Source: Bugulina stolonifera (lineage: Eukaryota; Bryozoa; Gymnolaemata; Cheilostomatida; Bugulidae). From it: a DNA stretch of 64,000 nt. The notes beneath the pieces are model-generated. The model saw only the letters and a list, made by a program, of their open reading frames with translations. It was not told the origin of the DNA and did no database searches. The position numbers were made by a program, and so were the translations under genes. Shown in pieces: positions 28,389-64,000 of the stretch. Location of the stretch: assembly GCA_935421135.1 (NCBI GenBank), contig OW285197.1, positions 3,686,850 to 3,750,849 on the forward strand. Direction: 5' to 3'. The stretch's first letter is position 1. Each line of letters opens with the position of its first letter.

Positions 28389-28626
28389 TTAACGGTGTGA
28401 GTTTCGTTTAGGATATCGCTTCCTAGACTTTCTAGACTTGATCGTAGATCTCCGTGACGGTCCAGCGGTTATTGATTTCATGGTGTATGGCTCGTCATAT
28501 ATCTCTGAATATGCAGAAACCTCTGTGCTCACTCCAGCCATACCAGCAGGGTACTTTGTTTGCGTTTTATCCATTTGGGGAGGTAATGGCAGGGGTCGCA
28601 TAGAAGACAGCTTTTTTTTCTTGAAA
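28389..28626 (-). other. Gene M exon 13: cytoplasmic tail
   Basis: 238 nt, 79 codons including the stop. It starts with FKKKKL straight after the membrane exon (a stop-transfer cluster), followed by a proline stretch (PLPLPPQ, SH3-ligand-like) and SEIYDEPY. A YDEP motif is a possible phosphotyrosine SH2 site. The tail ends with alternating R/K/S (RRSTIKSRKSRKRYPKRNSH). The gene P tail exon has the same length and the same basic end, but little other identity. Confidence 0.8.
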
Positions 28627-31600
28627 CTTAAAATAGATAAACAGTCTGAGTTCTGGATAATGAAACAAATATGTGTGACAAAAACCTTGCATAGAAACTG
28701 AAGCTGGACTATTTTGAGGGAGAAATACATAATATACGTGTACATGTATAATATAAATACATATAACACAATACGTAATACATATAATAATGTACCTATA
28801 ATACATATAACACATAATTATAATCAGGGGCGGATTTGGGGTCCCGCCCTCCCTGCCATGGCGGGACCCTTCATTTCCAATAAGAAAAAATTAAATTGAT
28901 CATTTCTCCTAAAAATAGCTGCAAATTGATCATGAAATAAAGTATTTACGGCTTACTCAAGTTCATCTTTCAACACAGGAAAGCTATTACTAATCTGTGA
29001 GCTTGATTCGCTACAGTTATAGTAGTAAGCTAGCCACATTAGTGGATTAGTAATAGATACACTATAAGACACAGACTTCCTACAGGAAGCTATTTAGGCT
29101 AGAGTGAAAATGTCAAGGACAATGTAATGTTGCTAGGAAACCAAATCAATGATAATATTATCATTGACCAAATCACGTGCAAGAAGCCAAGAAGGAAACT
29201 GCCTTATGTACAATAAAGATGGAAAGACAACTCTTGTCAGCTAAGAGGCAAATAAACCAAGCATGCAGTATTTTAAGATTTCTGTTGATCAAACACTAAA
29301 TGTAAAGTCATGTAACCCATGTTCATGTTTATTATGCTTTAGTACAAGAAGGAGAGCGAGTTGCACTGCACTCCATACAAGCTTGGCAATGGCTGAATGG
29401 CATACATATTCATAGTCATAGATTACTATAATAATACAATGTAATTATAAGATGATAATATAATTTAGAATAATATATTAACACAAAAATATTTTATTTA
29501 TGTTATAGGGCAGCAAATATTTATGTAACAAAAACATGTTGATTCATGGAGTGAGTGTGCATAAATTTGCTTCATTTAGTGCAAAATTCAGCATATGGCT
29601 TCGGTGGCCGGTGCGCTGCCCCGGACCCCGCCAGGAGGCCTAGTCGGCCCCCTGGACCCCCGGTCTGTTGGCAGAACCCTTCAAACTGTGCCAGATCCGC
29701 CCCTGCATATAATACACATATAATACATATCATACATAATTATGATATAATGACTTGAGTTGCATGCTGCCAACTAGTTGAAGTATATTATTATTGTTAC
29801 AAAAGACAAGTGAGAAAGCACCTACAGTGTATGGCGTAAGTTAAGTTACTTACTACATCCCAGTTAGAACTCCAACTGCCACCACCAGCAGAGAGTATAT
29901 TGTGGCAATTATAACTTGGGCAGGCACTCCTACAAATACACATTAATAATCATATACCCACAACTTTGTTCCTTATACAATGTCATGTACATGTAAAACC
30001 ATGAATAAAGCATTAGATATGAGCAACCTAATACATGCAAATCACTTCTCTGCTACTGAGAAATTTCTCTAGATTCAGTAAATAAAAGAAAGTAACTATA
30101 ATAATATGCAAGAAATGCTCTTTGCTCAGTAGAAGACAATGACCAGATTTCCATGAGTACTACTTTACCCACAATCCTAAGACAAGTTTACTCAATTAAA
30201 CTGCAACTGTCAGTTTCCAATTATTATTTTTAGTAAATGCCTGTATTGTGTCTGGCTAAACTTCTTTCAAGAGCCTACAATTTACTCACCAACGTTAGCA
30301 AAAGTTTGACCAAATCGGAAGCCATCTTGAATGGCTGAGCCAGCTAACGTAGTCTCCACACTTGTTTCATCTAGTTTAGTTGCTTTGACAGAGACTCGGA
30401 ATCTGACGGGAAGTTTTCCGTTCCATGTGTATTCTACAATTCCGTTTATACTTTTGTTTCCAACTTTGGCAGCGCCAAGGCATTTAGACGGAGTGCAGAT
30501 CTCAAACAGATACCCATCACATAGCTGCAATGGAATAATGCGGTCGAGCGCAAAATTATTATTTGTGTTGAGATCCATGTAAATATTTGTTAGTTCCCTT
30601 CTATACATCTTAAAAAATACAATGTTTAAGAGTTCAAACAGCCACATATTTTTTGGTGTTCAGTTTGCACTATTCATTAACACTATCCATAAGGTATGCT
30701 GTTGTTTTATTGATGTTAGACTAAATTATTTTATGGTCATGTTTAAACAGAGAAGTAGTCTGTCTGTTAGATTTTGTGTCTGATGCAAAGAGTATTCTAC
30801 ATGTACTACTGCAGCCTATTAAAGTGTACACTGAGATACGAATATGCATCGGACTAACACAAATAAATTCTCAACCGGAGAGTACTATACATGTATGCCA
30901 CACTGTAGTAAGGCAATGGGATTTTACTTCATGCTTTTTTTCAGGTAAGAATGTACACACATCATGTTCTACTCACGCCTTTTCCTGGCCTCCAGGAGAA
31001 CAAGTGTGATGCTCCAGCGTCAACCTGGTGTGTTAAGTCTTTTGGAGGAGCAGGTGCTAGAAACATAAAATATTATCTAAAGTTCTGGACCTGCTGAAAC
31101 TGAAACACAAGTGTATTTATGAGTCAAATAATGTCTTCCACAGTGCAGACTGTGTGAAACATTGAGTATCATTACATCTTTGATTGCAGCTGTAGGCCTA
31201 CATTTAGGATATCTGTATAATGCTGTTCATCATTTTCTTCTAAAATGTATAGCTTACTACATTGCTTTGGATAGTTGAACCAGAGAGTAAAATTGAATGG
31301 GCCAATGGGCATGGACCAATGGGCATGAACCAATGGGCATGGACCAATGCGCATGGACCAATGCGCATGGACCAATGGGCATGGACCAAGAGGCATGAAC
31401 CAATGGGCATGGACCAATGGGCATGGACCAATGGGCATGGACCAATGGGCGAGGACCAATGGCAAAGATAAATATAATGTTATGGCAAATAGTCAGCTTT
31501 AATTGTGTTATGAAGGAGTTCAAACCTCAGACAAATTTTATAAGCATGTAAGCAAACTCCGCTTCCATTATACTTAGCACTTTGCAGTATAACAACAGCA

Positions 31601-34600
31601 CACTGTTGCTTGCAGTTGCTCATCTCAGTGGCTAACATCAGATACACTATTTTGTGGGTTGGGACCCCTTTCGCTAGCCTTTGTTTACTGGTTTAGATAG
31701 GCTATTTTTCATCCAATAATAATAGCTAATTTCCTCAACTGGCCAATAGAAATACTTTTGACAGATTTTCTTAATGCTCCAACTTGCACCAACAATTTTA
31801 GCCGAAATGGGTAATCGGGAGAGATATCCATTAGTGCGATAAAGTAATGAAAAAATGAATAGATGAGCTGTGAGGTCAAAGCACACCTATGGTGAAGAGT
31901 TAGCTGCAGAATCAAAAACTCTAACAGCATTACAATGTTGTTTTTAACGGATAATTTGTGAGAATTTTCATAGTGCTGTAATCATTTGCAAGTTCAGATA
32001 TACAAAATTACAAAAAAAACCGTCATAACATCAAAATTTTGGCTGTGTTCAGCTTCTTTTGAGAGAATCCGGTATTGAATGAATCTAACATGTTTGACTT
32101 GGTTAAAAAGAGGAGAGATTCTGCTTCCAACAAATTTACAATATTTATATGACTTGTGTCACCCAGTGTTAGGGTATAATAGTTTTAATATGATGTAGTA
32201 AAAAGACAAAACCGTCTAGCCAGAGTTGAACATAACAGTCGGGATGGCGGACTTGAGAGAATTTTGAGTTGAGCTCTTAGAGCTTTATTGTACTGTACAC
32301 ATTATGAGCAAATGCTCAACTATCTACCACTTTTTTATAATATACATGTACACATACCTGCAGTTTCATCGTAAAACTTAGGTCACATGTTTTCTCAACT
32401 TTTTTCATACCATGGCCCACTTTGCCTAATCTAAAATTCCTATGGCCCACAAGCGGTCACAACAGATAATCAGAAATCAGTAATTTTTAGTATAATAGAT
32501 GACTGTATTTGAAAGATTGTCATATCTGTACAAAGCCAGAGTAGGAAACAAATGAAAGTTAGTGAGAGCCTTGGCAGTGACGTTTGACTGCAAGTACTTC
32601 CTATCGTGGTTCCACTTGAGATAAAGCACATCTGATGTCATGGGCTAATTCAAGGGGTTCTTCGATTTAGTTTCCAACTGCACCATTGTAGAAAATCCTG
32701 ACTCACAGAGATATGTTGTTGCGAATGGCAGTAACATCCTTAGACATTCCTTGGCTACTGATGGATAGCTGGGTGCCATTCTGGGTCAAAACTGGTTGGG
32801 GGATACTTCAGAAAATAAATTGTTCTCCACAGAATCATTTTCTAGCTCTATAAGCTCATCTTCCAGGTGATCTTCAATGTCCTCTACTTGGGTTTGGAAA
32901 AGATTTCTCAGTAGTTTCCGAGATGTAGGTTCCAGGTTGGAAAAATATCGCTGAAATTCATCTTTCAGCGCTTCAAGATGTGCAGTTATGTTGAAATTTA
33001 GCTTGGAATTTATTGGTTGAGCACCAAATAACTCAGACGGCTTCTGGAAGGAACTGAAGACTCTATATCCTGTCTTGCGCCTCCAATTCTCCAGTTTCTG
33101 GGTAAATGCGTTGATTGCATCTATCAACTGGATTACAGTAGATTCTGGGCCTTGGAGTTTCAAATTCAAAGTATTCAGATTTACTTGTATACTATATACT
33201 ATATACTATGTATACTGTGTATGCCCTGTGGCCTCTGAAAATCTCTGTTGTGCCCCCCCCCCCCCCCCCCTGGGGTTCATCGGCTCCCCGTTGAGAGCCT
33301 CTGACTTAAGACGATCTACTAAATAATGCAAGAGGTCTTACTTGATACAAATGTGGACGTCAGATTACTGATGGAGTTTACTCTGCCATGCGACATGAGA
33401 AACGAAGTCCAACTTTCCATAGTATACAGATGACCAGGGACTAGTCCTTCTTGGAAAATTATTGTCCTAGTCTACATGAAAAGAAACACATTATTGAAAA
33501 TACATGTAGCTAATACTAAAACAATTATTTACTCGTAGATGTTATTGATCCATAACAATATGAAATATTTTAAATGTGGAGCCTAAAGTGATTTACCTGA
33601 CCATAACTACTCTTCATTGTACATACCACATAATATTTACATGTGTATGTATTAGGCCTGCAACGATGAATCGATAACGATTCTCGATGCGATTATTAAT
33701 TTCCAGCATTTTCAATATTGATTCATTGCACTCAATTTTCGATTCTTGTTAAATACATACTTAGTCTGCAGAATCCCAAGTTATCACCATAGCATGGTGG
33801 CAGAGTGCTCGCTTTACAAACGTGTGGTCATGGGTTCGAATCTCAGTGAAGAACCATTTTTTTCTAGTAATTTTGTTGGCAATAAGTGGATATCTATAAT
33901 ATACATCATGTGCTAAGGTGTATTACTAATATACACTGTAAGTCTAAAAATATATAAATGCCCCAAACATACAATTTGTATTTGATATTCCACACCATTA
34001 GAAGGTATGCTTCTGGAATCTACTCATTCAACTCTTTTTGTTGATTCTGAAATGGAATTATCAACTCAATTACTACAACTGACAGTGTTCTAAAATACTG
34101 TCGCGAAGAACTACTGCAACGTAAATGGTGTCAGGGTAAATGATTCAAATAAATAGCAACATTGATAGTTGTGCTCACTGTCTTCATTCACTGCTCGCTT
34201 GGGGTTACAGTAACACACTTGCCTATTGTTGTACTACATAGTTACATTATTTTAGTAAAATCGTGAGATACTGTTATTGGTCTGATTGATCTCACTAGTG
34301 TATTTTCTGTTAATTTTGCGCAATGAAGTATCGAATCGAAAAAATCAAAACAGTATTTTGTGAATTGTTGCAGGCCTAATATGTATGTATCATACTAAAT
34401 GCATATTTGAAAACTATCACTCTAGACAAATGTATTGGACTTTAAGGAGTTTGGCTATTTTATATAGTATGTCTTACACTCGTTATACAGGAAACCACTG
34501 CTTATACCAAATACAATATTTTCATCATCTTTGAATATGTACATTATGGTGAGTCAACTGAGCTTCTTCATTTACACGGAAATATGTTACCAGAGACCCA

Positions 34601-37600
34601 GCTATCACTAAAAGTTTTCCAAGCCAGGGCTTCCTTGTAAGTAACAACATTTACATAGTGTCAATTTCTGCCAAATAATAGTGAAATGAAAATAACGGAT
34701 TTTATTCTGGTCTTCAGGTACAACCAGCTTATTGCGATACAAGATAATCAACTTACATTTTCCAGAGTGTAAACATAAATACTTTTAGATAAGCTGAAAT
34801 GAATCTTTAGATCTTCATACAGTTCCGTATTATTTGGCTCCAACGCAAATGAGAAGTTCGGAAATCCGTTTTCAGTTTGAATGAAGGTGACTGAATTAGG
34901 TGGTAATGGTGCTGCAACAAGAGTGATGGTCATTGATTTTTTAAATTGCTTGTTGTGAAAGATAAGTACCTGTACAACTGTATGAACAAGGTTTTCTTAG
35001 TAATACACCCATCAACTGTTTTCTTACAGAAGAGCATATTATGTACATGTACATGTATGCGGTTCAAATTGTATGCGTGTTGTGAACCTTTGGAGAGCGT
35101 TTGTATTGGAGTACAGACATTGTAGAGCTGAATGCTTATTGCGTAACGCTAACTGCAATATTACATTGCAATATTACATTGGATAAGGAAAAATAAGTTA
35201 CAGTCATTTATTTTTCATGGTACACAATCCTGGTGTACACAAATCCATTTTGGAAGCAGCTCGTATATCCGCTAGGTTTTTCCAGATTTTGTGATCACAA
35301 TTCATAAAAATTATGTTGTGCGCTTATTTTTAGACATCATGTGCACGAAGAACTCATATTTGAAGGACTCAGAGAGAGGCAAGTATTTTCTGATTAGACC
35401 GATCAGATACAAGTCTACTCTGAAAACTGTAGCTCAAATTTTTGCTCTTCCGCTACTGACCCTGGTAGCTAGTCTAGTAATATGAGTGTGTACATGATGA
35501 GTGTACTGTACTGTGGATATAAGGTAAATGCAACCTATGATAGTTTCCTGGGCTGTTCGGGTTTTGGGAAGTACATGTACATGTGATTGTGTCTGCTGAA
35601 CCTATGATGGATCCAGTATCTCATCTGACCACGCCATATACATGTATGGGTTCAAAAGCTTTTTGCGGTTGCTTCTATTACATGTACTAATGGCATTTTG
35701 AGGCAAAGATATTTAAGACATCTTTACTAGCCTTTTTTATCCCTATATGGCACACATATGTGCCATGGCTACACAATGGATAAGTCCCATTATGGCACAG
35801 ATGTGTGCCATAATTTCATCACAACTTTGAAAAGTTTAGATTGTGCTATGATGGTGACTGACTATTCAAATGAAAGCTCATTATGTTAGCCATCCAATGA
35901 GCCTACAATGTCAAGGCCATAGTTTGAATAATTGCTAAGTGACTCCTGCAAAGGTAGTAAAACTCTGTTTGGCATGTGCATGTGTAAAGTTTTTGAGTGC
36001 TTTTGCCTACGAGAGCCGAGGGCTACAAGTATGGGAAGGACTTGGACGGTGGTAGAGGCCGACCAAGTGTACCTTCTGCTCATTACATAGAAGAGTGAAT
36101 AGTTGTGGGTGCTCTTTATAGTGTAGATTGTAGATTATATCAGACGTAGGCCGATGCCGAGACTCATTGGAGCTCAGGACCGACGTAGGTCATGTAGAGT
36201 TTATACGCCGAGGGAGTGCAGAGAAAGAATGTCTACCCTTGAGAACCTAAGTCCGACGCTAGGTTCATTAGAACCCGGGATCGGCCTAAGCCTAAGGGGT
36301 GGATAGAGATGTGCTTAGCCTAGGATGAGGTGAACTCGAGCCGTACTGAATCCCACGGATTCTCAGGTGGAGTTACCTGCCTGAAGAGTAAGCCTCTGTA
36401 GGTTGAGTTAGGAGATGTTGCTTTATTCAAGCGCAATCAATAACTGATTCACAACACAAAATGCACTGCTTTATATACATAACAAACTTCCGGCCAAAAA
36501 GGCCCGACATGGTGTCGGTTATCCGACATGGGGTCGGCTCCGGAACAGACGCAACAATATGTCTGGTTCCGCCCGACTCGGCCATATAAAAGGTTGGCCT
36601 TCGCACCAAATGTGCTTACAATAAAGGAGAAACATGTCGTCTATAAATATGAGCTAAATCCATAAGGTCGGCCACGAATGTACTATATAAAATGGCAAAA
36701 GACTCTAATAATTCACAATCAAGTAAGGACAGACAATTACTAAATAAGTATATACATGTGGGAAAAACCAAGTTGCAATAGAACGTAATCCCAAGGCTTG
36801 ATTGCTAGTACATATGTATATAAGATACGCAGTATAATTATAAGATAATGAATGCATAGATGAATATGGATAACAATGCATGGGTAAGATATTTGAATGT
36901 CAGCTAATAATAATGTTATGTGACTAGCCAAGGAAAGCTAGCTGTCACGACCTTCTTAGAGCTGGCCAGGAGGGACAGCATCCGCTTTGATACTAAGGCC
37001 TTCTCAACGGCGTTGGCGTACGTTAGCTTGGGACTACTTTTGGCTGGCTGTTCCATCACACATGCACGCAACAATTGGAAACAACAATAGATCAACTTGC
37101 ACAGTGTGCAACAGTGACTTTCAGTGACACAAAATGTCTTCTACATTGAGTTATTTCAGTCAAATAAAGCATTTCTCGAGGAATACATTGGTGTTGAAAT
37201 TTTTCTGTTTTTTTGCACACGAATGTAGGTAATAGTAGTTTTGCACACACATCTCTAGTAACGAAAAAGTGGTAATACTAGCTTTTCTCACATCTTCTAG
37301 TATATTTTTCATCATTGTAAAACTCACCTGTAAGTAAAAACTGTGGATTTATATTTATCTTATACAGAATTTTGTCGGAAATGCAATGCACTTTGAATCT
37401 TGAAGCTGGCATAAATAGAAATAAGAATACAGGCAATTTTTGAGACACACCTCAGCGCACAAAAATAAGGCCTGGGATTTAGCCCCAAAATTAGACGAGA
37501 CTTAAAAGGCTAGTCTTAGTGCATGTATTGTACAGTGTATTGATATATACATATACATATATATATTTTAAGTGTACGTCTACATGTATATCACTGACTA

Positions 37601-40600
37601 AACCACAATGCTTCATCAAACAATGACTTCAGCAGTTCGAAGTATTTATGTCATGTGTCTTGATGTAGAATTGGGGTGCACCTAGCTATTGTCTAGTGGC
37701 CACATACCTTATGGTGGTGGTGCAGCTAGTGCTTCCAATAAAAGCAACTGGCTGATGCCCTATAAGCAATATATTATTCATACTCACGGGTCAGCAGAAG
37801 GTCAGAAAGTTGTGTAGGCTCTGAGAGCACAGACTGATTAGAGGATTCGGTCACTGCATATGCAGTACAGTTGAGAGCCATACCAGCTGGCAGTTCATCG
37901 ATCATCATTAGCTGCCTTTGTTGAAAAGGGAGAGCTAGAAATACCATGTGGTGCATAAATAATAATAATAATATTTAAACGTCCTAATATATAATCTCTA
38001 TAACAAGTTTTAATGTGGCTCACTTTGCCTAGAGAAAGAAATGTGAACTTTTTTTCAATGCCTACTGCTAAAATTGTAGTGTACTAGATTCACCTGGTTC
38101 AAATATCTCCACTTCACTTATCTCCAAAGGTTCCCCCTCCTCCAGATATCCACAGAGAGTTACCACTCTGTCACGGAAAGGAGGTGCAAACTCCAGACTG
38201 GCAATAATACCGTGAACGCTCCCTGTATACTTTCTTCTGTAATGGTCTGGAGTTTGCTCACATGGAGGGTCATCTGTTATTTGCCGACTGGACATCACAT
38301 TTATTTTCCAGAATGTACTAACTGTAACATAGCGTATTATAGCTTCACTCTGCAATATTACTGTTTACTGCAAACGTAAACGGTAGTGGTTAAAGGCACG
38401 AGTATGACACGAGAATTAAATGGGGGAAGATGAGAGAAAAAGAAGACAACTCCAACTAAGGTTCCGAAAGTTAACAATAATAGCCTTTGTTTACCACAAC
38501 CAAAATATTTTTGTTTGTTTAGTTGTGTCCAGTTATGCATACAATCATGTAAGCACATCGGCCATCAGTTGGAGTTATCTTCACGCTCTCACTCAATTTA
38601 TCACTGCCTTATCCTGCATGAGGAAAACAGCATAACTATGATATCCCTGTGCGAATAAAACTGAAACATGTCAGTTTGCTTAATATGGAAGACACAGTTC
38701 TGACTGAGACTGCTTGGAAAAGCCACATGAACATGTAGATGGCATCATGTATATCGACTAAAATTTAAATTTACATGCTCGTACACTGCGTGTACACTGT
38801 TTCCAATCAGTTCTCGTGCTACTGTCATAATGGAAATTGCAGTAAATGTTAAAATTGTGAAATCTGATTTGGTTATCAATTTGATTCTACTTCATCCATG
38901 ACACCATGTTGTTATTCCTGACTGGGTTTTGCCTCAGACTTCTATTTAATAGCAATGTAGTAACATGGTGCAGTGAACACCAGGGCTATACACTTTGTAA
39001 GCCGACTATATACAGACTAGACAACCTGGATATACGGGCCACCTTGCTATAAAACTGTATTTGAGCAGCCAACTGTATAGACCTGGAATTTCATTGAGGT
39101 GAGAGAAATATCATCTGGCGTTTTAAACACAACTCTCCTGCATAGTTACAGTAAGAGCAGAGCCCCTAGCAATCTGATTTCAGTTGTAAAATTCAACAAA
39201 TGAGGTTTCACACGCAAACATCTGTTCTGGATTTCAGGTAGAATCGTTCATTTTGAAACCGTTTTCAGTTTTAAATTCCAATGTCAGTTTTTTAATTCAA
39301 TGTACATGTTCTTTACTAGGCTCATTAATGGCTTGCATAGATTGTAGACTGAGTAAATAACCTACAGTGTACAAGCACATGTACATACATTCACTCATTG
39401 TGTTGAACACACATGGTACATGACTCATTATAATATAGATGATTTGTGAGAATACGCACTGCAAGCTACCGTTCTGTGGTAACAAAGAAACTGTTCACCA
39501 TAGTAATCAATCTGTTGAATTTTGTACACTCTCCCTAGATCAACACGCCACCACTTCTGTCCTGGTTCATCTGTTCTTGCCTTCCTAGTGCTCTTTCCAA
39601 TTGCACCATCAACAGCAAAATGGGATGTATGGTTATTAAATGACAAAGCTGTAGGTTTCCCAAATGCAATGTTTTCTACAGCAGCTAGGAAAGAAGGAGT
39701 GATTTGTTCACAGTAATAATTATGATGGATGCTTAGAGACTTATTTATAATAATAATAGGCACTAGTGCGATATATCAGGTGGTGCTAGTACCACACTGC
39801 AGGTACTACTACTATACTGCGGGTACTACTCCCACAATAACTAGCAGAAGTGATGGTACACAGAAGATATACATGATATATGTAGTCTTTAGTGCTAGTA
39901 GTCTACACTATTTCTAGGTACCAAAATCTTAACAAAATAATTTCACTTTTCGCAAAATGCCCAACAGGCGAAACCAAGTGGAATGACAGTAAAGAAACAT
40001 TTAAGAACCTGCTCTGAGACATGTGTGTACATTCTTTGTGGCACATAATTTTCACTCAACCGTTCAAAGTCGATTTACATGTAGAGGATTATTAAACTAA
40101 AGGAAGATGATTTTTAGGATATTCTGCTGTGTGACCAAGAGAAGACAACTCTAAATAATCACAAATGATTTTGCATTTACTCAAATCAAAAATAGTGTTT
40201 CATAGCAACTGGTGGCAGTAAATACATGTGTATGTACTTTTCGGCTACTTGTACAATCATGTACATGACGTATGTAATACATTGATGATGCATAATCACC
40301 ATCAGCTAAATTAGTGTGTGCATGATTGTATTTAATCCTGCAGCAAACCATTATGTACAATTTACAGTAACATCCATTCCATTGAACTGAAACTAGTCAA
40401 CTCCGGCACTCTGACTACACATTTTTATGTAATTACATTTACTATGTAACTATGGTTGTATGAATAGTACAATGTAACTCTGCCTACCTGAGTAATTCAA
40501 TGGATACTCCCACACAATAGTAGAGTTAGTTGTGTTGCTGGGTTCAATACTCTCACATTCTATCATAACAGAGGAATAAGATGACTTTCTCTGGATTGCA

Positions 40601-50000: not shown

Positions 50001-53000
50001 TAGAAAGTTCTATTATGATTGTATTGTAGGGCATTAACTAACCTGAGTGTGTATAATTACACTGTGTGCTGTAAGGTGTAGATGTCTGTACATGTAAAAT
50101 GACCATTTGTATAACATGCAGTTGCAACACAGGTAAAAGTTCGTCGTAAGAGGAATAGGTAATTTGTACTCACGGAAAACATCAGGATGTTGGCTAGGTA
50201 TGATGTTGATCACTTTATTGTAGGTAGTTTTGTCATGTAATACTTATTCTTCTTCTTCTTTCAGCCGCCACGACGTATAACTTCTGTCACATCTACTACT
50301 TTTATATCTTTTCTAACCGCATCAAGTTATTTTCCTCTAGGTTTTTCATTTATTCTTACTCTTACTCTTAGTTCCATGCCTGTTACTCTTCTTTCCATTA
50401 TCTCCATAGCACATGCCTCTACCATCTCAATTTGTTTGCTCTGACTTTGCTTCCCAGTTTTCCTACCTTCTGTACTTTTTGCTGTATCTCTAATGTACAA
50501 TCTCTTAATTCTATCAAGTCATGTGTCCTCTCAATGCAAAGTATACGCCGGCTCTAATTCAGCCTCCTGCTTTCTGGCCAAAACCACTGTTTCCATGCTG
50601 TATAGAACTGCTGGTCAGATAGTTGTCTTGAGCAGTCTATTCTTCCTCTTTGATTCGCCAAGAGCTTCGTAAGGCATAATATACCTGATAGTTTCTGCCA
50701 ACTACTCCGACCAGCTTGTACATGTGTATTTTTTGCCTTCACACTCCACATTCTCCAGTACTATATTTAATATTTTACCTTCCAGGTATTTTTTATCTCA
50801 AAATTCCAGGTTGATTTTACTAAATATGACTATGAAGCACATATCTTACAATTATTGCTCCTCATTGGTTGGGGCTACAGCTACGATTGTAATACTGATT
50901 TGTAGCTAAAACTTGCAGCTTTCCATCTTTTATCCCCCTTGTAACCATAGCACAAGTCATGTCATTACCTAAAATATTCCTCAAAACTAGAAAAATTACC
51001 CGAAATCTTGCCATGTTGATGTTTCATGGTCAGATGTAGTGGGCAGCAGCTGACTGTATGCTACACTAACCTTAGATGACCTATATTTTTGTCACCTATT
51101 ATAGACTGTTGGAATGCTGAGGCTAAGCTATATTTAATGAGCTAAACAGTTTTATGTTGTTTCTATTTGCTTAGTTATAAAAATGTTGTTTTGACACTTT
51201 GAGTGGAAAGTTAGTGATTAGGACATTCCTAGAACAGTTAAACTCTTTAATGATTTTTCTCAACTCAATCCCCTGTATTTTTATTGCACCACCACTTGAA
51301 CCTTCATGCAAACACAAATGCTCTATATTATGTACATTTTTGAATGTGTAACTTTGCTTACAGTTAGTTTCCTCTTCTCCGGTGCAAATCTCCTACTCTC
51401 TAGACTAACTTCAGCTTGCTCTTTACTCTTTACACATTTGCAAATAGCAATGTCATTCGAAAACATCCGTTTCCAGGGAGATTATCTCTTATATCATCGG
51501 TTAGTCTATCCATCAATATAGCTGCTGGCACAGCAGCTAGAAGGCGGGTTATTATTTTGGAGCAGAGCTTTACATCGAATTGGTTTTCTTGTTATGATTG
51601 ATAGGTATTACGCTGTTTATTTTTGTCGAGTGAAACTCAGTGCTCCAATATTTCTACATCATTATATTTGATATTGATTATAATATTATGGTTGTGTGTC
51701 TATAAAGAACTGAACCCGCACTGAAGAAATCAACCCACTGGAACCCACATAACCCCCATGCAAGCCAAGCAGCTAGTCCAGCCACTGCAGCAAGCCCAAC
51801 AGCCACTGCTTCAGACAATGATGAAAGCTTTTTCCATCATTGTCTTAGGCCCACAAGCCCTATCCAACACGGCAGTGGTCACACCAATCACCGCAAGTCC
51901 CAGCGGCAGCTACAATCAATATTAAAAACCCACTGACCACTCCTCGCCGATGTCATCTTCTTTCGTATAGACTTATCCTCTTATTGCTCATCCATATATC
52001 TGTGATCTTAAGCAGCGATGTAAGCAGTAGAGTCAGTGAAGTCTACACAGACGACTAGCTAATTATTTGCATACTGGGATAGCGAAATCTCTTTCATTTA
52101 ATTACATGCAACTTGTTCAATTTCCAGCTGTTTTGTCTTAAATGATTTTATTTTTTGCTGAATTTTTAGTTGTCAACTTCTCAGATTTTGGGATTTCAAC
52201 ATCACTGACCCACACAACTCAGAACGCTTGCTCACGTCACTCAAACTATGATTGGGTGCATCGTCACTCTGCTGAATATGACATTAGAGAATGGGTGGAA
52301 TTGAGTGTTCCAGTTCGTGCCAGATCTCTTGCAGTGTGCAGTTTCACAAATCCAATCGTCCCACTAGCAATTATGGAAATGAAAATATATGAGAAAGGTA
52401 ACATCTAACTAACAATGTCCTCGTTGTACAACATCATGTAGTATCAGCTTTTACTTCTAGCAGTGCCATCATATTTATTTGTTTTTGTAACTCCAATATT
52501 TGGCATTATCAATAGTAATAAGAACATCACAGTCATGTAGTTTGTAGTGCCAGACAATGATTGTTTTAACGTGATTGCCCAATAGCAGAGCTAGTCAGTG
52601 TTTCCGGTTGTCAGTGCCTGTTGACTATAGGCCCTCTAAGCTGTTGAACTGCATCGCTGGGCTGCATAGATGTTTCTACATTTCTTTATGTTTTAATCAC
52701 ACAAAGGAAAGAGTATATTCGGGAGAAAGAGTGTTAATGTTATACCAGAAGAGTTTCCAAGTGGAGTAGGGATAAACTGCAGCATATACTCTGCAGCTTT
52801 TATAAGAACTGAAAACAGATTGTTTAAGCCAGTGCAACTGCAAAATGACCTTCTTATTGGTGAGTAAAAGTTTAAATGTTGAGTTTATCGAACAAGTCTC
52901 ATCTACAGTGAAAATCGCGGTCAATGGAAATAATGACTTGTATTACTATAAAATACATTGCAGACAAAATATTATGGCTACATCGATCCTGGTATTTCAA

Positions 53001-56000
53001 AAAAATTCTAGAACCATTTGGACCTAGAGTAAATGTGACAAGCACTTCACAGCTGATTAATGGACTGGCAAGCTTTGAGGTCACATTTGAGAAGATACAT
53101 GAATCTGACATGCTACCAAACTTGAAGCTAAACGTTGTGCAAACAACGAATGACAGTACTCTGCATATACAAGACACTGGAATTTGGGTGAGTGTTTCAA
53201 ATATTGAATTTGTCCAATCCAAATTCTTAACTTGGCTGAAACTCAGCAAAGATTTATTTACATGTAGATGCAGAGAGATGTGCAAAATAGTTGGGATGCT
53301 GTAATGCAGTAGCCAAATTTTGAGTGCACTTTTCGTTCTGCCATTATATCAGTTGTTGTTCATCAAAAGGTGTAAATATATATACATCATTTGAATCCTC
53401 TCATTCTAAGGAACCCATTTATACTTGTTTCAATTGTGTTATAACATCTTCAGTAAAGTTAAAATGCATTATATATTTCGAGTCCAGTTTTGCATCCACG
53501 ACCAAAATTCGCTCCCTAAGAAATTGATTTATGTCTTAGACCAATTTGTCTGCTCAATGGGCTTCAAAAGATTTTTAGAATTCGCTCAGAGCATAAGGTC
53601 TCCAATTGTTGCATAATTTTCCGTTTATTCACCTGTAATCTACATGCATTTATAAATTGGCTGTAAGCTACAGTTAAAAGAATCGATATTTCATAAAATG
53701 GCCACACGTCAGGACCAGAATTTGACCACTTTTCTTGCATATTGGAAAGATGATCAGAGAAAACTCTATTAAATGATGCATTATGAATTCTACTGTGAAT
53801 AACTTCATCAGAAGGTGGAAGGAAATTGATACAGAGAAGGATCTTAGAGCTGCAGATAGAAACTCTCCGTCATGAAGCGCGACCATTACGAGAAACAGTA
53901 ATTTTCTTAACTGTTTCCAACAAATTTATGCAAATTTAGCAGACACGTAGGCAAGAATTATGCAAAATCTGAATACCTTATGCTCTGAGTGAAGTCTAAA
54001 ACTCTTTTGATGTTTATTACTAGCAGAGGAATTAGTCTAAGACATGAATTAATCTCGTAGGGGGCGACTTTTGGTCACATAATACAAAACTTGACTCAAA
54101 GTGTACTATAATGAATTGCAACTTTACTGGAGATGTGATAACACAATTGAAACAAGCGTAAATTAGTTCTTCAAAGTGAGAGAATCCAAATGATATCATA
54201 CACTGCATATTTATGTGTGAGTGCAGGCGCACTCATGATTATTTACCCAGTGCGTGTATGTCTAATGCTGCTATTTTAGATGAACATTTCAAACCTTGTA
54301 CATGGTGGCTCCTATGAAATATATTACACAGTTACTGCTACCTATGGTGCATTAACTAGAACAAGGTCAGGGCCGACTTTCAAGTTGCTGGTTGGTGGGT
54401 AAATTCACATATAAGTGTTGGCTGTCTGCCGCTGCTTTGTATCTACTGTAATACGTATTCTATACACATTGTACAATGAACAAGTAGATTGTAGTATTGT
54501 ACTGTTCTATGTTATGAGACAGGAATACTGAAGAGATATCTGTTCTATTCAAAAAACGTTTAAGGGTGGAACTAACAGTATTACATGGGTAATTAGACCA
54601 GATTACTAGACGCGAGTGTGGTATTATTAAGACAGCAGAAAATTTCAACTGTGGCTATAATGCAATAATTGAACTTTTGCGCAAACCTCTGAACCTACAT
54701 TGTAAGTAGGGAAAACTAATAATTTTCATCAACATAATATGTTGTGAGAGCTCATGAAGTCGACTAATGTTGAAGCTACGAATCATATCAATGCTGTGTC
54801 TAAACTGAACTGTATGAGCCCTTCTTACAAATGTACATCGTTCACACATTCTGAATTTCCAGCAAATGCAAGTTTTCTAAAGAATTTTTTGGGATGCATC
54901 TGTGATAGACCCTCAAACACACTGGCCTAAACTAACAGGAAAAATTTTTATATCAAAAATTCAGCTGTGCCAAATGGCTAGAATAATAATCTAACTAAAA
55001 CCCACGGCTAATAGTAGTTTGGGTTGAGACCATATTACAAACTAATTCTTTTGTAATCCAGGTCGGTCTTTTAGGTTTAAATCATTGAATTGTATCAAAT
55101 TATAGCTCCATTGAAACCCCAAGAGATGAAAGTCGAGGAGAAAGTTTTAGGTCAACTGATTGTTACGATCACAATGGAACCAGAGAACATAACAAGGTCT
55201 GATGAGGTGCACATGGACTCCGATGGGCTCATGAATGTTTACAGGAAAGAAAATGTAAGGCAAACTGTGACAATGCTGAGATAAGTCTACAAATAAGTCC
55301 TATCATTATTAACTGTAGCAATTGGAAGCTAAACATTAAGTGTAGAAAGAAAAGTTTACTGTCACCAAAAACGTCTATAATCATCTGAGCTGTACTTTGA
55401 CCATAGGAATGAAAGCATGAATTGCATGTAAATTTTGCTGCAGTTGAGCTAATTTCATTGAAACCGTCAAAATTATTTTGTGGTGTGGCGATAACCAGCA
55501 TTCTTGTACGGTTCAGGTTAGCCGGGAAACCACATTAACATTTTAACTCATGTTTACGGTACGTTACTATTAAGTCACATATACTTGGTTTGAACAAATA
55601 TAGGCACATCACTACGTGTATTATAATGAGACACTAAAAATTATACCATTTACTATGGTCAACAGAATATTATTTTAAATTGAGATTTTGTCACACCTGA
55701 GTGATCCGGTTCTTAAATTTAACCTCACATAACCAGTACATTTCATGTTTTCTAAATATTATCAGTCGTAATATGGAAAATTGTTTTACAAACATATTTT
55801 GACACAAATATTTTTTTGGTCATATTTGTACTCTATTCCACTTACGGTGTGTTATTATGCTAAAAGGCTGATTAAACACACACGATTCATGTTAGTTTGC
55901 TGCATATAATTATACAAAAATCGGAACTGCTTTTTTCACTATACCAGGTGCCTGGAATGTATATATACTTTGGACAAGCATCGCCTGGTGAGAAATATCA

Positions 56001-59000
56001 TCTGCATAGTTGGACAACAATGCAATTATTTGGTGAAACCATTAAATCCGAATCTAATGAGACAAATATGTTTGTACCAGGTAAACCTCACTTTTATCTA
56101 ATTTTACTGCACATTGCATTTTGTGGCGTGGGATGCGTCTGTCACAGGTGACAGTGCTTGTTGTTTCCACAGGTTTTTAACTGTATCAAGCAAAAAATGT
56201 TTATCTTCAACAGAAACAGTCTCGGGAAGACCATTGTCCGAGACATAGTTTACTCGTGAGGTTAATACGCAAATGTGTTTAGCTCGAGATTGGTGACGCC
56301 TTTAAACCGGACTTTTGGTCATCCAATAATGAGAGATGCTTTTGTTCTGAGCCAAATGTGTAATTTAGTCAAGAAATCCAATAGCTCGGTAGTCATATCA
56401 CCATCCCCTTACAACAGTTACTTTGGCAAACATAACAATTTCAGCTTCAAGACAATCATTTGCTACTGCTAGTTTCTATTACTTTAAAAGGGGTTATGAC
56501 ATGTGGTTTATGTCTATATTCAATGAAGCACCTCTTATTTGTTTTTTTCGAATTTGTTCTACTATAAGCAGAGCTGTGTCCTCTTGCCCATGCTTGACTC
56601 ATTAGCACTATTCAATGCTGCTTCAAATGTAAATTTGTGCGCTTCATGTCTTTAGAGAAAATTGTCAAATTCAAGTTTTTTGCATAGAAAGAGTACAACA
56701 AATGATTTCACAGTGATTACTAATATAGCTGTAGAATAACTTGTGCAAGTTGTTGAATTTCTCTGGGCTTTCCCTTTGCTGGCAATAACTAGCTGCCTTT
56801 ATTGGTACATGTTTTAGGTCTGGTATTTTATCTGACCACACTATATACAGTGGCTATTATTGCGGTCTTCTATATGTCTATACATTGCGTTGTGGTCTAG
56901 TCGTTCTAAATATAGCCTGGAAGGCACAAACAATAGAATAGCTGTAAAAATAGAATAACTAAATAGCTAGGCACTGACTATATTGTGCCACTAGATAGCT
57001 GAGGGCGTCTTGATGCCACCGTAAAACATGTGGCATAACCCCTTTAAAATAAATCGGTTGTCTAATGTATGAAATAAATTTAATTCATCATCCTGCTTTT
57101 CATTGAATGGATTATTTGTTTCTGTTCTTTGTAACTGTAGAGAAAAAAGTGAATACAATTTTTAAATTGGAAAAAAACTAAATTTTATGATAAAAAAGAA
57201 GTTTTTCCTTTCGATGGAATCTCATGATTTTTTATGCAGACTTCTTATTTGAGTAAGGATCTGTTCAACATTATGTTCTTACCTTCTTTAAACAATTTTC
57301 TTTTAGGACCACCCTCACCTCTCAACTTCACATATCAAGTGACTTCTAACAATGCATACCTCTTTTTGTGGAGAGTTCAAGAATATTTGGTAAGTTGGTG
57401 TTGTTTGCTTCCTTGGGGGCATAATAATTTACTTCTTCCACACACTCACAGTACCTAGCGATCATGCATCTGTGTGACACATTTATGTAAATGTCTTGTC
57501 TCAATATAGTAATTATTTCACAGGATGCTTTAGAACTTTGACAAATAAAATTGTCCATTGCGGATTTTATGAGTATACACTTTGTTCCATTAGGACAGTG
57601 GCAGATCCTAAATTTTCAACACTTTACTAGCTAGTACTTTTATATACAGCGGCTAGGCGTGTCCGATTTTATAATAGAGTGTGAGATTACCATGTTCTTA
57701 CCACCACTCTTCTGTCATCACCTGCTAAAAATCTAGGGTGAAACATTGCTACAAGGTCGGAGCAGACAGTGCTAATGCAGCTGTTTTTTGCCCAGCTACA
57801 TGTGGATCTCTATCCTGCATGCAAGTGAAACACACACATAGGGGACCTCCATTATTTCAAGACTAGAGAAAAACGTCTTAGCCCCTAGGCCATGAAAATT
57901 AATTTAAGACATGAGTAAAAAGTCAGTTTACTACATATCATCTTTTTGTCCGGATAACAACTCATCCACTTTTACAGCTTCAAGATGGGTTTGTCCTGGA
58001 CATCTGTACGGAAGAAAGGTGTCAAGAAACAATATCAATTTCTTACAGTGGAACTAATAAATATGTAGAATATCTTTGGGAAGGTCTGACTTCAGGCCAA
58101 CTCAATGCATCACTGAAAGCTACATTAAATAATGCAACTAGTGTTCCAATTGCGGGAAAGCCGGTCACAGAATCTTTCCAATTGCAGAAAAGGCCGAGGG
58201 TTATTGGAAAACGAAGTGGTTTGTATTCTCTGTATTTTCTGCAGACTAGTTGTTGTAGATATGTTACAATAGCAAAGTGGGCTAGTCGAGGCGAACGTCT
58301 GTTTTACAGTAACATGTTTCTTCTCATCATCTACTGTCCATTCACAATGTCACTGTAGGAAAGTCAAAGACCTGGCGTGTTGTCGGAGCGGCAATGTTCA
58401 AATGTGTACAATACGCTGCTGCTCTAGCAGTCCTAAATTGTTTCTTGCAGGAAGTTTGGTTGGCATAAACACAATATAGATTTATCACACATGGCAGCAG
58501 TTGGGCCAGTTATCACAAAACCTGATGGTCTTCACAAGAGCCCGTCAGGTCCAGCTTTGTTAAAGCTTATGTGTTACTTCTATTTGAGATACTCAAAGAC
58601 ACAAAACACAAAGATACGTCTAGAATTTTGTAAATGAAAGGAATGCAGATGTGCATGCATAAAGCATAAGTTCAAAACACCAGGTTAAGAAAAGACATAT
58701 CTACTGAGCTGCATTGGCTAGCTGCAGTATTAACTATACTTTTGCCTATTTTCGCATGGTATGATGTTCTTCGTCCATCTTTAAAATTATATAAAATGTT
58801 GCTTTTACATAATAATTATTAGTTTCATGCACAGAATATCATACCATGCAAAAATAAGCAAAAGTATAGCTAATACTGCAGCTAACCGATGCAACTCAGT
58901 AGATATGTACACTCTTTAGCCTAGTGTTTTGAACTTATGCTTTGCACCTGCACGTCTGCATGCCTCATTTACAAAATCTAGATGCATCTTTATTAATATT

Positions 59001-60525
59001 TGTGACATATAACAAGCCCAATTTCCATGCTAATCTTCCATTACAAACATGGTCACTTTTACACCACATCTACCGCGTATGTGCAAAGGTGTTTACACTG
59101 GTGTACTTTGTTTACTCTGTTTCACATAACTTTCTAAGATGGAAATATCTTTGAAAGGTGTAAACTCTTTTAGGTGTCTCATGGTTTCTCATTCTGCCGA
59201 TATATTCACTGGTATTACTAGCTGCTGGTCTAGTCGGAGGGTATGGGTAAGTTCCAGAGGTCATGTCACATGTTGTTACATCTCCAAAATGAGGGGCATG
59301 GTGATTGAGTACTAAAATTTATAATTATTGAGGTGTTTTGAGCCAAATGTGGCTTCTGCAGGATTATAGCTCTATAATAATAATAGATTTAGTTATTTGA
59401 ATAATTGCACTGCCTTAGCTAGGTGCGATTATTATTGTGAGTATCAATATTATGTAATGTGCGGATCAATGTTCTTTGCTAATTTGCATAATGTATAAAT
59501 GGGTCAGAGCTAGTGCAATATGTACAAAACAACCTGCCATTACAAGGATGATACTTTTTATTTATGGATAGTAGTACAAGACACATTTTTTAATTATATA
59601 TTTATTACTTAATATTTCAGTCCTTGCCCGAGTAACACCATACTCTTATTGGTATTACTTGGACAAGTAGCAAAATATTAGGTAAGAATTCTTTATAAAG
59701 AAAAGCGTCTCGTGTTGCTATTCATAACTAAAATATAAGCCCATACCAACATTTTTCAATTTTTTTACTACTAATACGTCTCTACACTTTTCATATACAT
59801 GTACACTGGTCATGTACTAGTGCACTGTTCATATACATGTACACTGTTCATATACATGTACGCTGTTTATATACATGCACCGTTTATTTACATGTACATG
59901 TTGCACTATTTTACACATGCAGTAAATAATGCGATCTAAAAAAAGTTGTTTTCAATCGACTCTCAGCAGTGCCTACCATTTCCATCCTGGATGGATCAAT
60001 TTTTCTGCCTGACTGCACCTTAGCTACACTGCCAGGTGGAAAACTTACATTGAAATTGTTATTGCAAGCGTGCATCAAACCAAATAGGTAACTCTGTTCT
60101 GAGAATGTGACATTTAAAAGGTCCGCTGAAAAAGTCTGAATTTAAATTCTACAGCTTGCTCACTCGCAAGTTAATAATTATTCTGCACATCAGTGATTGT
60201 AAAGTCATCTGAAAGTCCTTTACTGCAGTTTTGAATGCCATACTCTATCGAGGATGAACAACGTGATGATATACATCGATATTGTAGAGTGAAACGGTCT
60301 TACCAAGTGCAGGTTGGGAAAATTGCACCAATTGAACCTCTGGACAATGCGTCTAATGGATCGGCAGCTGGAAAACAGATGAGAGACTCGAACCCTTATT
60401 TGCCTGCTGCAAAAGCATCTTCAAGAAGAAGAAAAACTGCATATTCAGCTACGAAAGTCTCGAAAAGGAATCGTATGCGACGCTCAATTCGACGCTCTAC
60501 TAGACGTTCTGCTCGATTCAAATAA
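47052..60525 (+). CDS. Receptor gene P: FTP/FN3 single-pass membrane protein
   Basis: Fourteen exons: 47052-47110, 47327-47516, 48465-48567, 48976-49164, 49755-49982, 52170-52397, 53012-53187, 54280-54394, 55106-55254, 55948-56080, 57307-57389, 57978-58218, 59174-59246, 60288-60525. Total 2205 nt, 734 aa, all GT..AG and in phase. The order is: signal peptide (YYFIVPISLLL), an FN3-like domain in two exons (AGQFYEVYVQAY), EPKPVLNFSASL segment, FTP domain (NIALNKPVSMSS, WIKVDLQAIYVV), three two-exon FN3 domains, a membrane helix and a basic tail. Exons 3, 6 and 14 are exactly as long as in gene M (103, 228, 238 nt). AATAAA overlaps the stop (60,521-60,526). Likely a surface recognition or adhesion receptor; its ligand is unknown. 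The tail acceptor (TTGTAG at 60,287) lacks a pyrimidine tract and rests on the length match with M. Confidence 0.85.
49755..52397 (+). other. Gene P FTP domain, two exons
   Basis: Exon 49755-49982 carries RNIALNKPVSMSSTASLS, VTDGIYSAS and KWIKVDLQ. Exon 52170-52397 carries WVELSVPVRARSLAVCSF and IMEMKIYEK. The halves match gene M in phase (2 in, 1 out) and nearly in length. Two cysteines just before the junction are also present in M. The 2.2-kb intron contains a reverse-transcriptase relic. Confidence 0.8.
50253..51540 (-). pseudogene. Non-LTR retrotransposon (LINE) reverse-transcriptase relic
   Basis: On the minus strand, broken frames give MDRLTDDIRDNLPG followed by LLFANV where FADDI would stand. 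Then come RRRGN (compare ERRGMKVS) and RANKLRW before a stop (compare LRWYGHV). These follow the order seen at the 3' end of LINE ORF2 proteins. Many stops and frameshifts make it clearly dead. It lies in intron 5 of gene P. Confidence 0.55.
53271..54205 (+). mobile_element. Second Tc1/mariner-like element, decayed right end
   Basis: The left end CAGAGAGATGTGCAAAATAG matches the element at 24,694. The following 300 nt and the inverted right arm are paralogous to that copy. The core retains a transposase helix-turn-helix in plus orientation (STVNNFIRRWKEIDTEKDL, about 53,790-53,850). The right end stops near GATATCATACACTGCAT without the final bases. It lies in intron 7 of gene P. Confidence 0.75.
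58621..58980. repeat. Foldback (MITE-like) element in gene P intron 12
   Basis: Arms of about 145 nt pair with a few mismatches around a loop of about 60 nt. The left arm opens TTTTGTAAATGA and includes GCATAAGTTCAAAACAC, and the right arm holds the complements. It is unrelated to the other two foldbacks. Confidence 0.8.
59174..59246 (+). other. Gene P exon 13: transmembrane helix
   Basis: Encodes WFLILPIYSLVLLAAGLVGG, preceded by the last FN3 exon and followed by GTAAGT. Its phases (2 in, 2 out) match gene M exon 12. Confidence 0.85.
59621..59681 (+). other. Possible alternative short-tail exon of gene P
   Basis: A strong acceptor (AATATTTCAG) precedes it, and GTAAG follows directly after TAG. 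Read in the phase left by the membrane exon it gives GPCPSNTILLLVLLGQVAKY and then a stop. If used, the receptor would lose the basic tail. It is not in gene M, and this is an inference from splice signals only. Confidence 0.3.
59935..60230 (+). repeat. 300-bp direct repeat, copy 1
   Basis: Matches 61,866-62,165 over about 300 nt with moderate divergence. Shared phrases include ATCCTGGATGGATCAATTTT and AATGTGACATTTAAAAGGT. It ends just before the gene P tail exon. No open frame is conserved between copies. Confidence 0.75.
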
Positions 60526-60780: not shown

Positions 60781-60841
<61 letters not shown>

Positions 60842-60842
60842 T

Positions 60843-60929
<87 letters not shown>

Positions 60930-60930
60930 T

Positions 60931-60962: not shown

Positions 60963-60963
<1 letters not shown>

Positions 60964-61599
60964 ATTACCATGCAAGTACATTATATTGTAATGTCTTATG
61001 GGTTGGTCACACTGGTGTCGATGTAGACACGGGTGTGGGATGTGCTTGGAAGTGGTCTACCAAGTTGTATTTTCACCATTACATACAGAGTTAATTGTTA
61101 TGTACATTTGCACGTAGCACTCATAGTCTAGCAGACAATATTACTTAAGAAACAATGACAAACGAGTACATGCAGGGAAATATTCAATGAATAATGTTAT
61201 GCAACCAATTAAAGTACAGGCAATCGGTTTCTGATGGTATCTGAACTTATGTTGAACTACATGTATCTGGCCGGAAAAGAATAGCCTCTTGTTTACTAAA
61301 ATGGTAACCAATGAGATAATTTAGTACTAGGTTTCAAAATGATGTTACTCAACAGGTAAAACACACGCAATCTACGCCACAATTCGATATGCATATTAAG
61401 CAACCGATAATACCTGCCGATTGTGATTGTACAAAGATAATTCTACCTGTTTTATTACTGAAAAATGGTCAAACACTAAATAGTCCAATAACACCCATAT
61501 ACAGGTAAAGTTATAATTCTTATATTTTTGTTTCATATAATTCTAATATAAGTAACAAAGGAAACCACTTAGCCAATATTACTTTCCTGACATCATTTT

Positions 61600-62369: not shown

Positions 62370-62950
62370 TGGTATACTCTTTATGGGTGTCCGGTCTAAG
62401 ATTTGTATTTAAACATACACCGTGATAATGTTTAACAGTTTCTAGTTGTTCAAAACATAGTCACTATTGAAAGTAGGAGCAGTTTAAGATGCAAAAACCG
62501 CAACCTTACTTTTAGATAAATTAAATCTCATGAAATGGAACTACTCCGGTCACCTAGAGTCTGTTTAAGTCAATTTGAAAATGTAAACTGTCAGAGGGAG
62601 CCTTTATGGTCATGTACTTTACAGTATCATCAGCAAACAACTTGATGTTTGAATTTTTGACAGATTTGACGATGTCCTTAATGTATATGATGAAAAGAGT
62701 TGCGCTCATTACACTTTCCTTTGGAACACCAGATGTGATATTAACTGGGTCAGACCTAATTCCCTGCGGTAAAACAAACCGAGATCTATTAGACAAGAAC
62801 GTTACCATATGAGTGTCAATTTTCATATCTATTAGTTTAGTCGATATATTGTGATGTGGGACGAAGTCGAAAGTCTTGTGAAAACCCAAAGCAGCGAGGT
62901 GAAATCTTTCACCTTTTTCAAGTTAAGCTGAAATATCCTGCACCACAGTG
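62370..62950 (-). pseudogene. Non-LTR reverse-transcriptase relic (CR1/Jockey-like)
   Basis: Minus strand: GFHKTFDFVPHH (compare DFSKAFDSVPHH), VNITSGVPKESVMSATLFII, then KLFADDTV with the catalytic FADD. These are palm blocks in the right order. A further frame holds MRFNLSKSKVAVF, as in the RT thumb. The 111-codon frame is flanked by shifts and stops, so the element is dead. Confidence 0.85.
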
Positions 62951-63715
62951 ACTGGTTGTGTGGAGCAGGGTAGTGGTCTCCTAAACCAGTAACCACGAAC
63001 AACACAACTCTCATTATTATAGAGCTATTAGAAAAAATAAATAATTATGTGATTTATGTAAAGTCTGTGCATGTGCTACATAGCTTAAAGTGAATAGCTT
63101 ATGAGTGATGCTACAAGTAGGTCTACTACATTTGATGAAATATCGACAGGTATTTGTAGTCAATAAGTGAACCAAAATAACCCATATGGTCCTGAGTCAA
63201 TACTTGGTTGCTAGACTTGAGAAAGAGTATGTTCAGTCTCAGTGGGTAGTTTGGTCATCAAGTTTGAAGACATAATCAGCTCGAACTAACTTCTACTACG
63301 AGAGAAGACTATGTATTAGTCGCAAAGAAGTGTCTTTATAGAGATCTAAGCATCATCTGAGACAATGATAGCCCAAACCATTGACTTTATATATTATTGT
63401 AACTTCTGGAAAATAGTTCCGGCAAAAGGCAAATGTAGCATCGTCTGGAAACAGTGCAACAGTACATTACTTGTATAATCTAAAACAATTTATGTTAAAA
63501 ACACTTATTTATATTGTTGAATTATGAATAGCCAATTTGATATACTTCATTGTTGGTGTTGATGTAGTTAGTAACTACACCGTACATTGTATAATTTATC
63601 TGCTTAGTTCACTTGCATTACATCTTACAAAAAAAGATTATTATAAATACATGTGAATATAATATATCGAATACATAGTCTGTACTAACTTTATTTTATT
63701 GCAAAGTCAAACATT
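62951..63715. other. Spacer upstream of gene Q
   Basis: No gene seen. It probably contains the Q promoter. AT-rich, with no clear TATA assigned. Confidence 0.4.
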
Positions 63716-64000
63716 ATGTTGTTCTTGGTCCTAATCCCACTCTTTCTGGCAGGAAGGTGAGTTAATGTTTGCACAAATTTCTATTGGACATAAAAAATAT
63801 CCATTATTTGCAGTGCTTACATATGCATAGCAGTGCAAAATTTATTGTGAACACACAAATTTGACTTAATCTAGTTCAAGTAAATGTATGATGCATCTAT
63901 TTACAGGTCTTGCTCTCCCGCTGTGGAGCTAAGTCATTTGAATGTCACAGCAGTGTCTGACTTCCGGTTAAGAATGGAATGTCGTTTGACTCGAAACATA
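63716..64000 (+). CDS. Receptor gene Q, 5' end (third family member, cut by window)
   Basis: Exon 1, 63716-63756, encodes MLFLVLIPLFLAG, a signal peptide, and ends AG before GTGAGT in phase 2, as in M and P. Exon 2 starts at 63907 (TTACAG acceptor) and reads SCSPAVELSHLNVTAV then LRMECRLTRN up to the window end. The cysteine near the start, the NVT site and the hydrophobic-x-C-R pattern match exon 2 of M (NVTILQ, NISCEV) and P (MRIQCRV). It is therefore the start of another receptor of the same family in tandem with P. The rest is outside the window. Confidence 0.75.

Follow-up and report, generated by a model that had tools for sequence, protein, structure and literature searches.

Two genes, M and P, that lie head to head in a 64,000-nucleotide window of chromosome 11 of the colonial cheilostome bryozoan Bugulina stolonifera (C11:3,686,850-3,750,849; positions below are those of the window unless given in Mb or with a contig name) are probably complete members of a clustered multigene family, and are predicted to encode type I membrane receptors that likely recognize self, non-self or microbial ligands. 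M is on the minus strand and P on the plus strand, with 3.2 kb between the start codons, and both are predicted from sequence to be single-pass membrane receptors with a signal peptide. The genome searched comprises 234,951,659 bases in 27 contigs; the cluster is read from one haplotype only, and copy counts from the genome searches are lower bounds.

The M and P models were built by hand from exon homology, splice sites and intron phases. M has 13 exons (43870 to 28389) that encode 696 aa, and P has 15 exons (47052 to 60525) that encode 784 aa; in both, the spliced frame is open throughout and all internal boundaries are GT-AG. The exons share a common order of signal peptide, FN1a/b, FN2a, FTP1, FTP2, FN2b, FN3a/b (in P), FN4a/b, FN5a/b, membrane helix and tail. 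The FN3a/b unit is not found in M and is present in P and in a third copy, T. The predicted signal peptides are encoded by exon 1 of M (43782..43870, -; phase 0 to 2), which is a hydrophobic exon with an ATG and a phase-2 donor and is the least certain exon of the model, and by exon 1 of P (47052..47110, +), which is assigned from hydropathy and the gene model. The calls of signal peptides and membrane helices are based on hydropathy of the sequence only.

Homology between M and P is apparent exon by exon. Among the phmmer matches listed between the open reading frames (ORFs) of the two genes, FN5b scores 36 bits, FTP1 26, FN2a 20, FN2b 19, FN4b 16, and FN5a and FTP2 15 each. Unrelated pairs mostly score 12 bits or less; one reaches 15.3 bits and consists of overlapping opposite-strand ORFs near 45.5 kb. 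FN1a, at 10.5 bits, is inside this background and is separated from it only by shuffling. When the 13 shared exons were compared to 1000 shuffles of the partner, 10 exons beat all shuffles (including FN1a, with 0/1000 reaching the score) and FN1b beat 987, and the signal peptide and tail exons are not separable from shuffles (694/1000 and 104/1000 reach the score, respectively). The phases are identical at 13/13 shared exons (0-2, 2-0, 0-1, 1-1, 1-1, 1-1, 1-1, 1-0, 0-1, 1-0, 0-1, 1-2 and 2-0), an agreement that is not wholly independent because some boundaries were hand-picked with the phases of other copies in view. Exon lengths are equal for FN1b (103 nt), FTP2 (228 nt) and the tail (238 nt), and differ by 3 nt for FTP1, FN4b, FN5a, FN5b and the membrane helix exon. 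Identity between M and P is about 20-35% by exon. The initial annotation of this DNA, made from the sequence alone, had described a common exon order, matching phases, several equal exon lengths and strong divergence of the ectodomains between the paralogs, together with a membrane helix and a basic tail in the same domain order; these points are borne out here.

The two FTP exons form the best-defined domain of the family. These are FTP1 (39460..39684, -) and FTP2 (38094..38321, -) of M, identified by homology to P and a fucolectin profile, and FTP1 (49755..49982, +; homology to M and comparison to fucolectins) and FTP2 (52170..52397, +; homology to M and the fucolectin profile) of P. A joined FTP1-FTP2 profile of nine members matches the solved fucolectins 4gwi (E 7e-13, positions 2-153 of 154) and 2j1r (E 7.4e-12, positions 3-153) and, in part or more, 3cqo and 1k12 (the latter over the first half, E 2e-6). 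Thus, FTP is, by profile, a fucolectin jelly-roll domain in both halves. The His of 'THT' and Arg of 'YNR' in the solved fucolectins, which are presumed to be the fucose-binding residues (motif H..., RxD, R/K), are replaced in M and P. In an alignment of nine family members examined by eye, the aligned His is absent from 9/9 and the Arg from 8/9; two copies (L054 and L059) have a His two positions from the aligned fucose-binding site. The earlier description of the domain as fucolectin-like is, thus, upheld for the fold and not for lectin activity, which is unsupported as the canonical His and Arg are missing. Compared to the F-type lectins (fucolectins, FTP domain, CBM47), the family shares one whole fucolectin domain but differs in that the domain is split over two phase-1 exons, has mostly lost the aligned His/Arg, and is flanked by two FN-type half units within a predicted membrane receptor.

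The FN-type units are supported to different degrees. FN1 is encoded in M by FN1a (42175..42358, -; homologous to P FN1a) and FN1b (41376..41478, -; shuffle test and joined profile) and in P by FN1a (47327..47516, +; homology to M) and FN1b (48465..48567, +; gene model, Pfam and FN1 profile). An FN1 profile of three members matches fibronectin (1fnf, E 2.9e-7; 3t1w, E 8e-6; strongest over the second half, positions 59-86 of 103), tenascin and designed FN3 domains (tencon 13-101, E 0.014), and Pfam fn3 is detected in P FN1 at E 5.8e-5 (23.7 bits compared to a cut-off of 25). By profile, FN1 is a fibronectin type III (FN3) domain that is split over two exons. FN5 is composed in M of FN5a (30977..31056, -; homology to P) and FN5b (30290..30524, -; homology to P and genome search) and in P of FN5a (57307..57389, +; homology to M) and FN5b (57978..58215, +; homology to M and genome search), the donor site of the last being weak by eye. 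The best profile match of FN5 is to FNDC5, at a weak E of 0.029, with no match in Pfam. The remaining units are FN4a (34757..34911, -) and FN4b (33342..33471, -) of M, aligned by homology to FN4a (55106..55254, +) and FN4b (55948..56080, +) of P; FN3a (53012..53187, +; homologous to T) and FN3b (54280..54394, +; read from the sequence and gene model) of P; and the FN2 exons considered below. No match to an FN3 fold is detected for the joined FN2 and FN3-unit profiles or for FN4 in Pfam, and these three units are termed FN-type solely because of their size, strand pattern and division into two exons. The FN3 domains of the initial annotation, therefore, hold by profile for FN1 and weakly for FN5, and are not matched by the FN2 and FN3 units. 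Fibronectin type III receptors share with the family the FN3 domain that profiles identify in FN1, but in the family the remaining units have diverged beyond the reach of sequence profiles and FN2 appears to be cut in two by FTP.

This last feature is a proposal, in which FN2a and FN2b would be the two halves of one FN3-type domain split by FTP. FN2a (62-67 aa), the 'PKPV' segment, is at 40488..40688 (-) in M, where it is detected by homology to P and genome search, and at 48976..49164 (+) in P; FN2b (45-50 aa) is at 37788..37934 (-) in M and 52707..52859 (+) in P, with the P exons and M FN2b assigned by homology between the two genes. In favor of the proposal, each half matches the a or b halves of other units in size and, by eye, in strand pattern, a single Cys per half is invariant in 6/6 joined members, and the FTP exons between the halves are 1-1 modules. 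Against it, the joined profile has no FN3 match, and profile comparison to the other units and halves yields nothing significant.

The membrane helix exons of M (29854..29929, -; hydropathy and homology to P) and P (59174..59246, +; hydropathy and gene model) are both phase 1 to 2, and a hydrophobic phase 1-2 exon is found downstream of FN5b in 7/8 copies, the exception being T. A weak Pfam match to DUF6787 over the P helix was below the cut-off and was set aside. Two classes of tail are distinguished. Class I tails, represented by M and copies at 2.52 and 3.88 Mb, have a proline-rich stretch, DKTxTK(Y/F)PxG and S(A/E)YS(E/Q)I in 3/3. The last of these motifs (SAYSEI in M and SEYSQI in the other two) fits [SIVL]xYxx[ILV], the consensus of the immunoreceptor tyrosine-based inhibitory motif (ITIM), and is followed by YDxP in 2/3. 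The M tail (28389..28626, -; 238 nt) includes the proline-rich stretch, SAYSEI, YDEP and a basic end. Class II tails are basic and are represented by P and copies at 2.34, 4.07 and 3.90 Mb, plus a helix/tail exon pair at 3.877 Mb. The P tail (60288..60525, +; 238 nt) is strongly basic and without the ITIM-like motif, which is found in 0/3 of the class II tails read (P, 2.34 and 4.07 Mb). The head-to-head pair, thus, has one member of each class. The presence of two tail classes on the same ectodomain plan, one of which is ITIM-like, resembles the paired ITIM receptors of vertebrates (e.g., KIR and LILR). By contrast to those receptors, no immunoglobulin (Ig) or C-type domain is found in M or P by Pfam, and the class II helices read are without the charged core residue that marks an activating partner.

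The initial annotation had proposed a gene cluster on the basis of the window, and a search of the flanking genome reveals that this cluster extends far beyond it. With a query of FN2a, FTP1, FN3b and FN5b segments taken from other members, 24 FN2a sites are detected on C11 within 1.75 Mb (2.326 to 4.077 Mb) and one on C2 in the whole genome. Of the C11 sites, 20 are strong (18 at E<=1e-3 in the main search; T and a second copy, a23, in another) and four are weak (E 0.11-0.33). FTP1 is downstream on the same strand of all 24, within 12 kb for 22 of these and found locally for T and a23; the cluster holds at least 20 FN2a-FTP units, or 24 when the weak matches are counted. Other segments are similarly confined: the genome matches of the M FN5b query (8/8 at E<=1) fall within 2.338-4.070 Mb of C11, and those of the helix/tail queries (E<=10; 5/5 for class I and 10/10 for class II) within 2.33-4.08 Mb of C11. 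Eight further copies (L051 and L053-L059) have FN2a and FTP1 in 8/8 and FTP2 in 7/8, as identified in a scan that took only stop-free 1-1 exons as candidates and in which the phase is, therefore, given by construction; FN2a is short in L057. FN2b is found in M, P, T and 3/8 of these further copies and is not confidently found in the other five, where some of the stretches fetched end soon past FTP and the candidate in L059 is doubtful. The copy outside of chromosome 11 (L053; C2:11200000-11203300) is a single FN2a-FTP1-FTP2-FN2b unit that is complete within 1.8 kb. Arrays of FTP exons without adjacent FN2a matches are also noted on C4 (16.45-16.54 Mb), C5 (12.29-13.11 Mb), C9 (9.17-9.29 and 13.05-13.24 Mb) and C10, suggestive of further FTP families in the genome.

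The third copy, T, which had been placed at 63.7 kb, is real. It starts with a predicted signal peptide (63716..63756, +; hydropathy and gene model) and FN1a (63907..64066, +; homology), the latter crossing the window end at 64000, and the rest of T is past the window, where homologous exons continue as far as about 92.4 kb, counted from the window start. T and P have the extra FN3 unit in common. The codon at the FTP1/FTP2 junction of T is TGA in the model and a sense codon in seven other copies, and no membrane helix exon is found within the 4.6 kb searched downstream; T may, therefore, be dead or mis-modelled. Class II helix and tail exons are present at C11:3877438-3878081 (+), on the same strand as T, whose 3' end is undetected.

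Recent duplication is evident within the cluster. In comparisons of 14 small pieces, those of 2.92-2.98 and 3.27-3.31 Mb are 93-99% identical, with neighboring copies across the blocks at 90-93%, and those of 2.33 and 4.07 Mb are inverted copies that are 92-98% identical. Recent copies, compared over nine exon pairs, differ by 35 synonymous and 31 non-synonymous changes, which gives a ratio of non-synonymous to synonymous differences per site (pN/pS) of 0.25 (0.64 for the tail pair alone). The recent duplicates are under purifying selection, and the pN/pS indicates that the copies are maintained. Diversifying selection between recent copies was considered and rejected on the basis of this ratio and of the T/a23 ratio of non-synonymous (dN) to synonymous (dS) divergence, which is 0.14-0.35 for exons FN2a, FTP1, FTP2, FN2b and FN3a. 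The dS of T and a23 varies by exon, from 0.07 and 0.11 in FN5a/b, through 0.39 in FN2a and 0.48 in FN3a, to 1.4 in FTP1, 1.5 in FTP2 and 2.1 in FN2b, the high values being near saturation. Since the synonymous sites differ too, the exons seem to differ in age, as exchange or gene conversion between members would cause, and T/a23 seems to be a mosaic of such exons in this one gene pair with short exons.

A mechanism can be proposed in which the fucolectin-fold head, held off the membrane by the FN3-type units, likely binds the ligand; this ligand need not be fucose, given the loss of the canonical binding residues His and Arg. Class I members (M and two others) would likely signal via a tail tyrosine motif of the ITIM type, and class II members (P and others) would present a basic tail without such a motif, as in paired-receptor families; both roles are suggested by the motifs. 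The repertoire would grow by segmental duplication, as seen in the pieces compared, with one member pair a putative mosaic of exons of different age. The recognition or adhesion role that the initial annotation drew from a cluster with divergent ectodomains is consistent with the divergence and clustering, is not favored by the purifying selection of recent copies, and in function is still inference.

Several observations weigh against a family of intact recognition receptors. The ITIM consensus is short, and of the three class I tails, two are closely related to each other (77%). Only 8 FN5b and 8 tail sites are detected for the 24 FN2a-FTP units; therefore, as many as two thirds of these units may be 3'-diverged, secreted or dead. 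No FN5b match adjoins the helix/tail pair at 3.877 Mb, and T may be a pseudogene given the junction TGA of its model. Profiles lend no support to an FN3 fold for FN2, FN3a/b or FN4. Diversifying selection is not observed in recent copies, though it might be expected of recognition genes.

Other explanations account for part of these data. One that overlaps with the reading preferred here, and is possible if somewhat improbable, is that the proteins serve as pattern-recognition receptors toward microbes alone, either bacteria or symbionts, and do not act between colonies. The fucolectin-type fold, the C-type lectin exons in the same window (11 and 23 kb) and the common immune function of large lectin families of invertebrates are in accord with microbial ligands; however, the canonical fucose-binding residues are not found, and the proteins are predicted to be membrane-bound with a signaling-type class I tail rather than secreted. 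Alternatively, the proteins may act in development, in adhesion or wiring between zooids, neurons or gametes, and their genes may simply have expanded by tandem duplication. FN3-type stalks are common in adhesion molecules, and purifying selection in the recent copies is as such proteins would have it, but the recent segmental duplications, the mosaic pair and the 20-35% identity of M and P are judged unusual for conserved developmental adhesion genes, and this explanation is considered unlikely.

That the cluster is largely in decay, with few functional genes and many relics, is quite unlikely. Such a state would account for the shortage of FN5b and tail sites, for the stop and undetected helix exon of T, and for the reverse-transcriptase fragment and transposon-like ORF among the genes. 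It is at odds with the fully open frames of M and P, with the stop-free FTP1 (8/8) and FTP2 (7/8) of the further copies (a scan restricted to stop-free candidates) and with the pN/pS of 0.25. The reading of M and P as complete members of a family of recognition receptors is retained as probable.

A more specific and doubtful extension of the recognition reading is that the cluster is a bryozoan allorecognition complex, in which a fucolectin that lacks its sugar site, inserted in a fibronectin-type domain, would serve as a protein-binding head, and ITIM-like versus non-inhibitory tails would decide between fusion and rejection. If so, bryozoan allorecognition would rely on building blocks different from those of hydroids, which use Ig domains. 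The cluster resembles the Alr complex of Hydractinia in that many diverged single-pass receptors of one family occupy one chromosomal region of a colonial animal. The Alr ectodomains are Ig-like, whereas no Ig family is found in M or P (Pfam, E<=1), and high allelic polymorphism and control of fusion mark the Alr receptors, whereas the bryozoan cluster is known here from the sequence of one haplotype alone. In bryozoans, fusion may be restricted to colonies that are close kin, and kin recognition is documented for the larvae of Bugula neritina (PMC11686985). The draft genome report of B. neritina mentions only weak similarity to Alr1 (PMC7576161). Among the matches listed in the literature searched, no paper is titled for bryozoan recognition genes or such a receptor family. 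When P, as the sole query, was compared to 5.8 billion proteins (candidates selected by shared 5-residue words; 7,993 scored), none was found at E<=10. B. stolonifera can be cultured (PMC10213821). A cluster at known coordinates in a culturable species makes the question of bryozoan recognition directly testable by resequencing and expression.

Other elements are noted in the window. An ORF in the intron region of M (32786-33205, -) was rejected as an M exon; by eye, it resembles a hAT/ZBED-type transposase piece, and its matches in Pfam are only below the cut-off and to unrelated families. A GACA-type microsatellite (60656-61094) is directly downstream of P, with several frames open, and a fragment of a retroelement reverse transcriptase (RVT_1) is at 62554-62922 (-). 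Beside the cluster are C-type lectin (PF00059) exons of two similar minus-strand genes, at 11041-11328 (marginally below the Pfam cut-off) and 22841-23155. A further stretch at 12259-12654 (-), for which there is no Pfam match, resembles by eye the first half of one of these C-type lectin genes.

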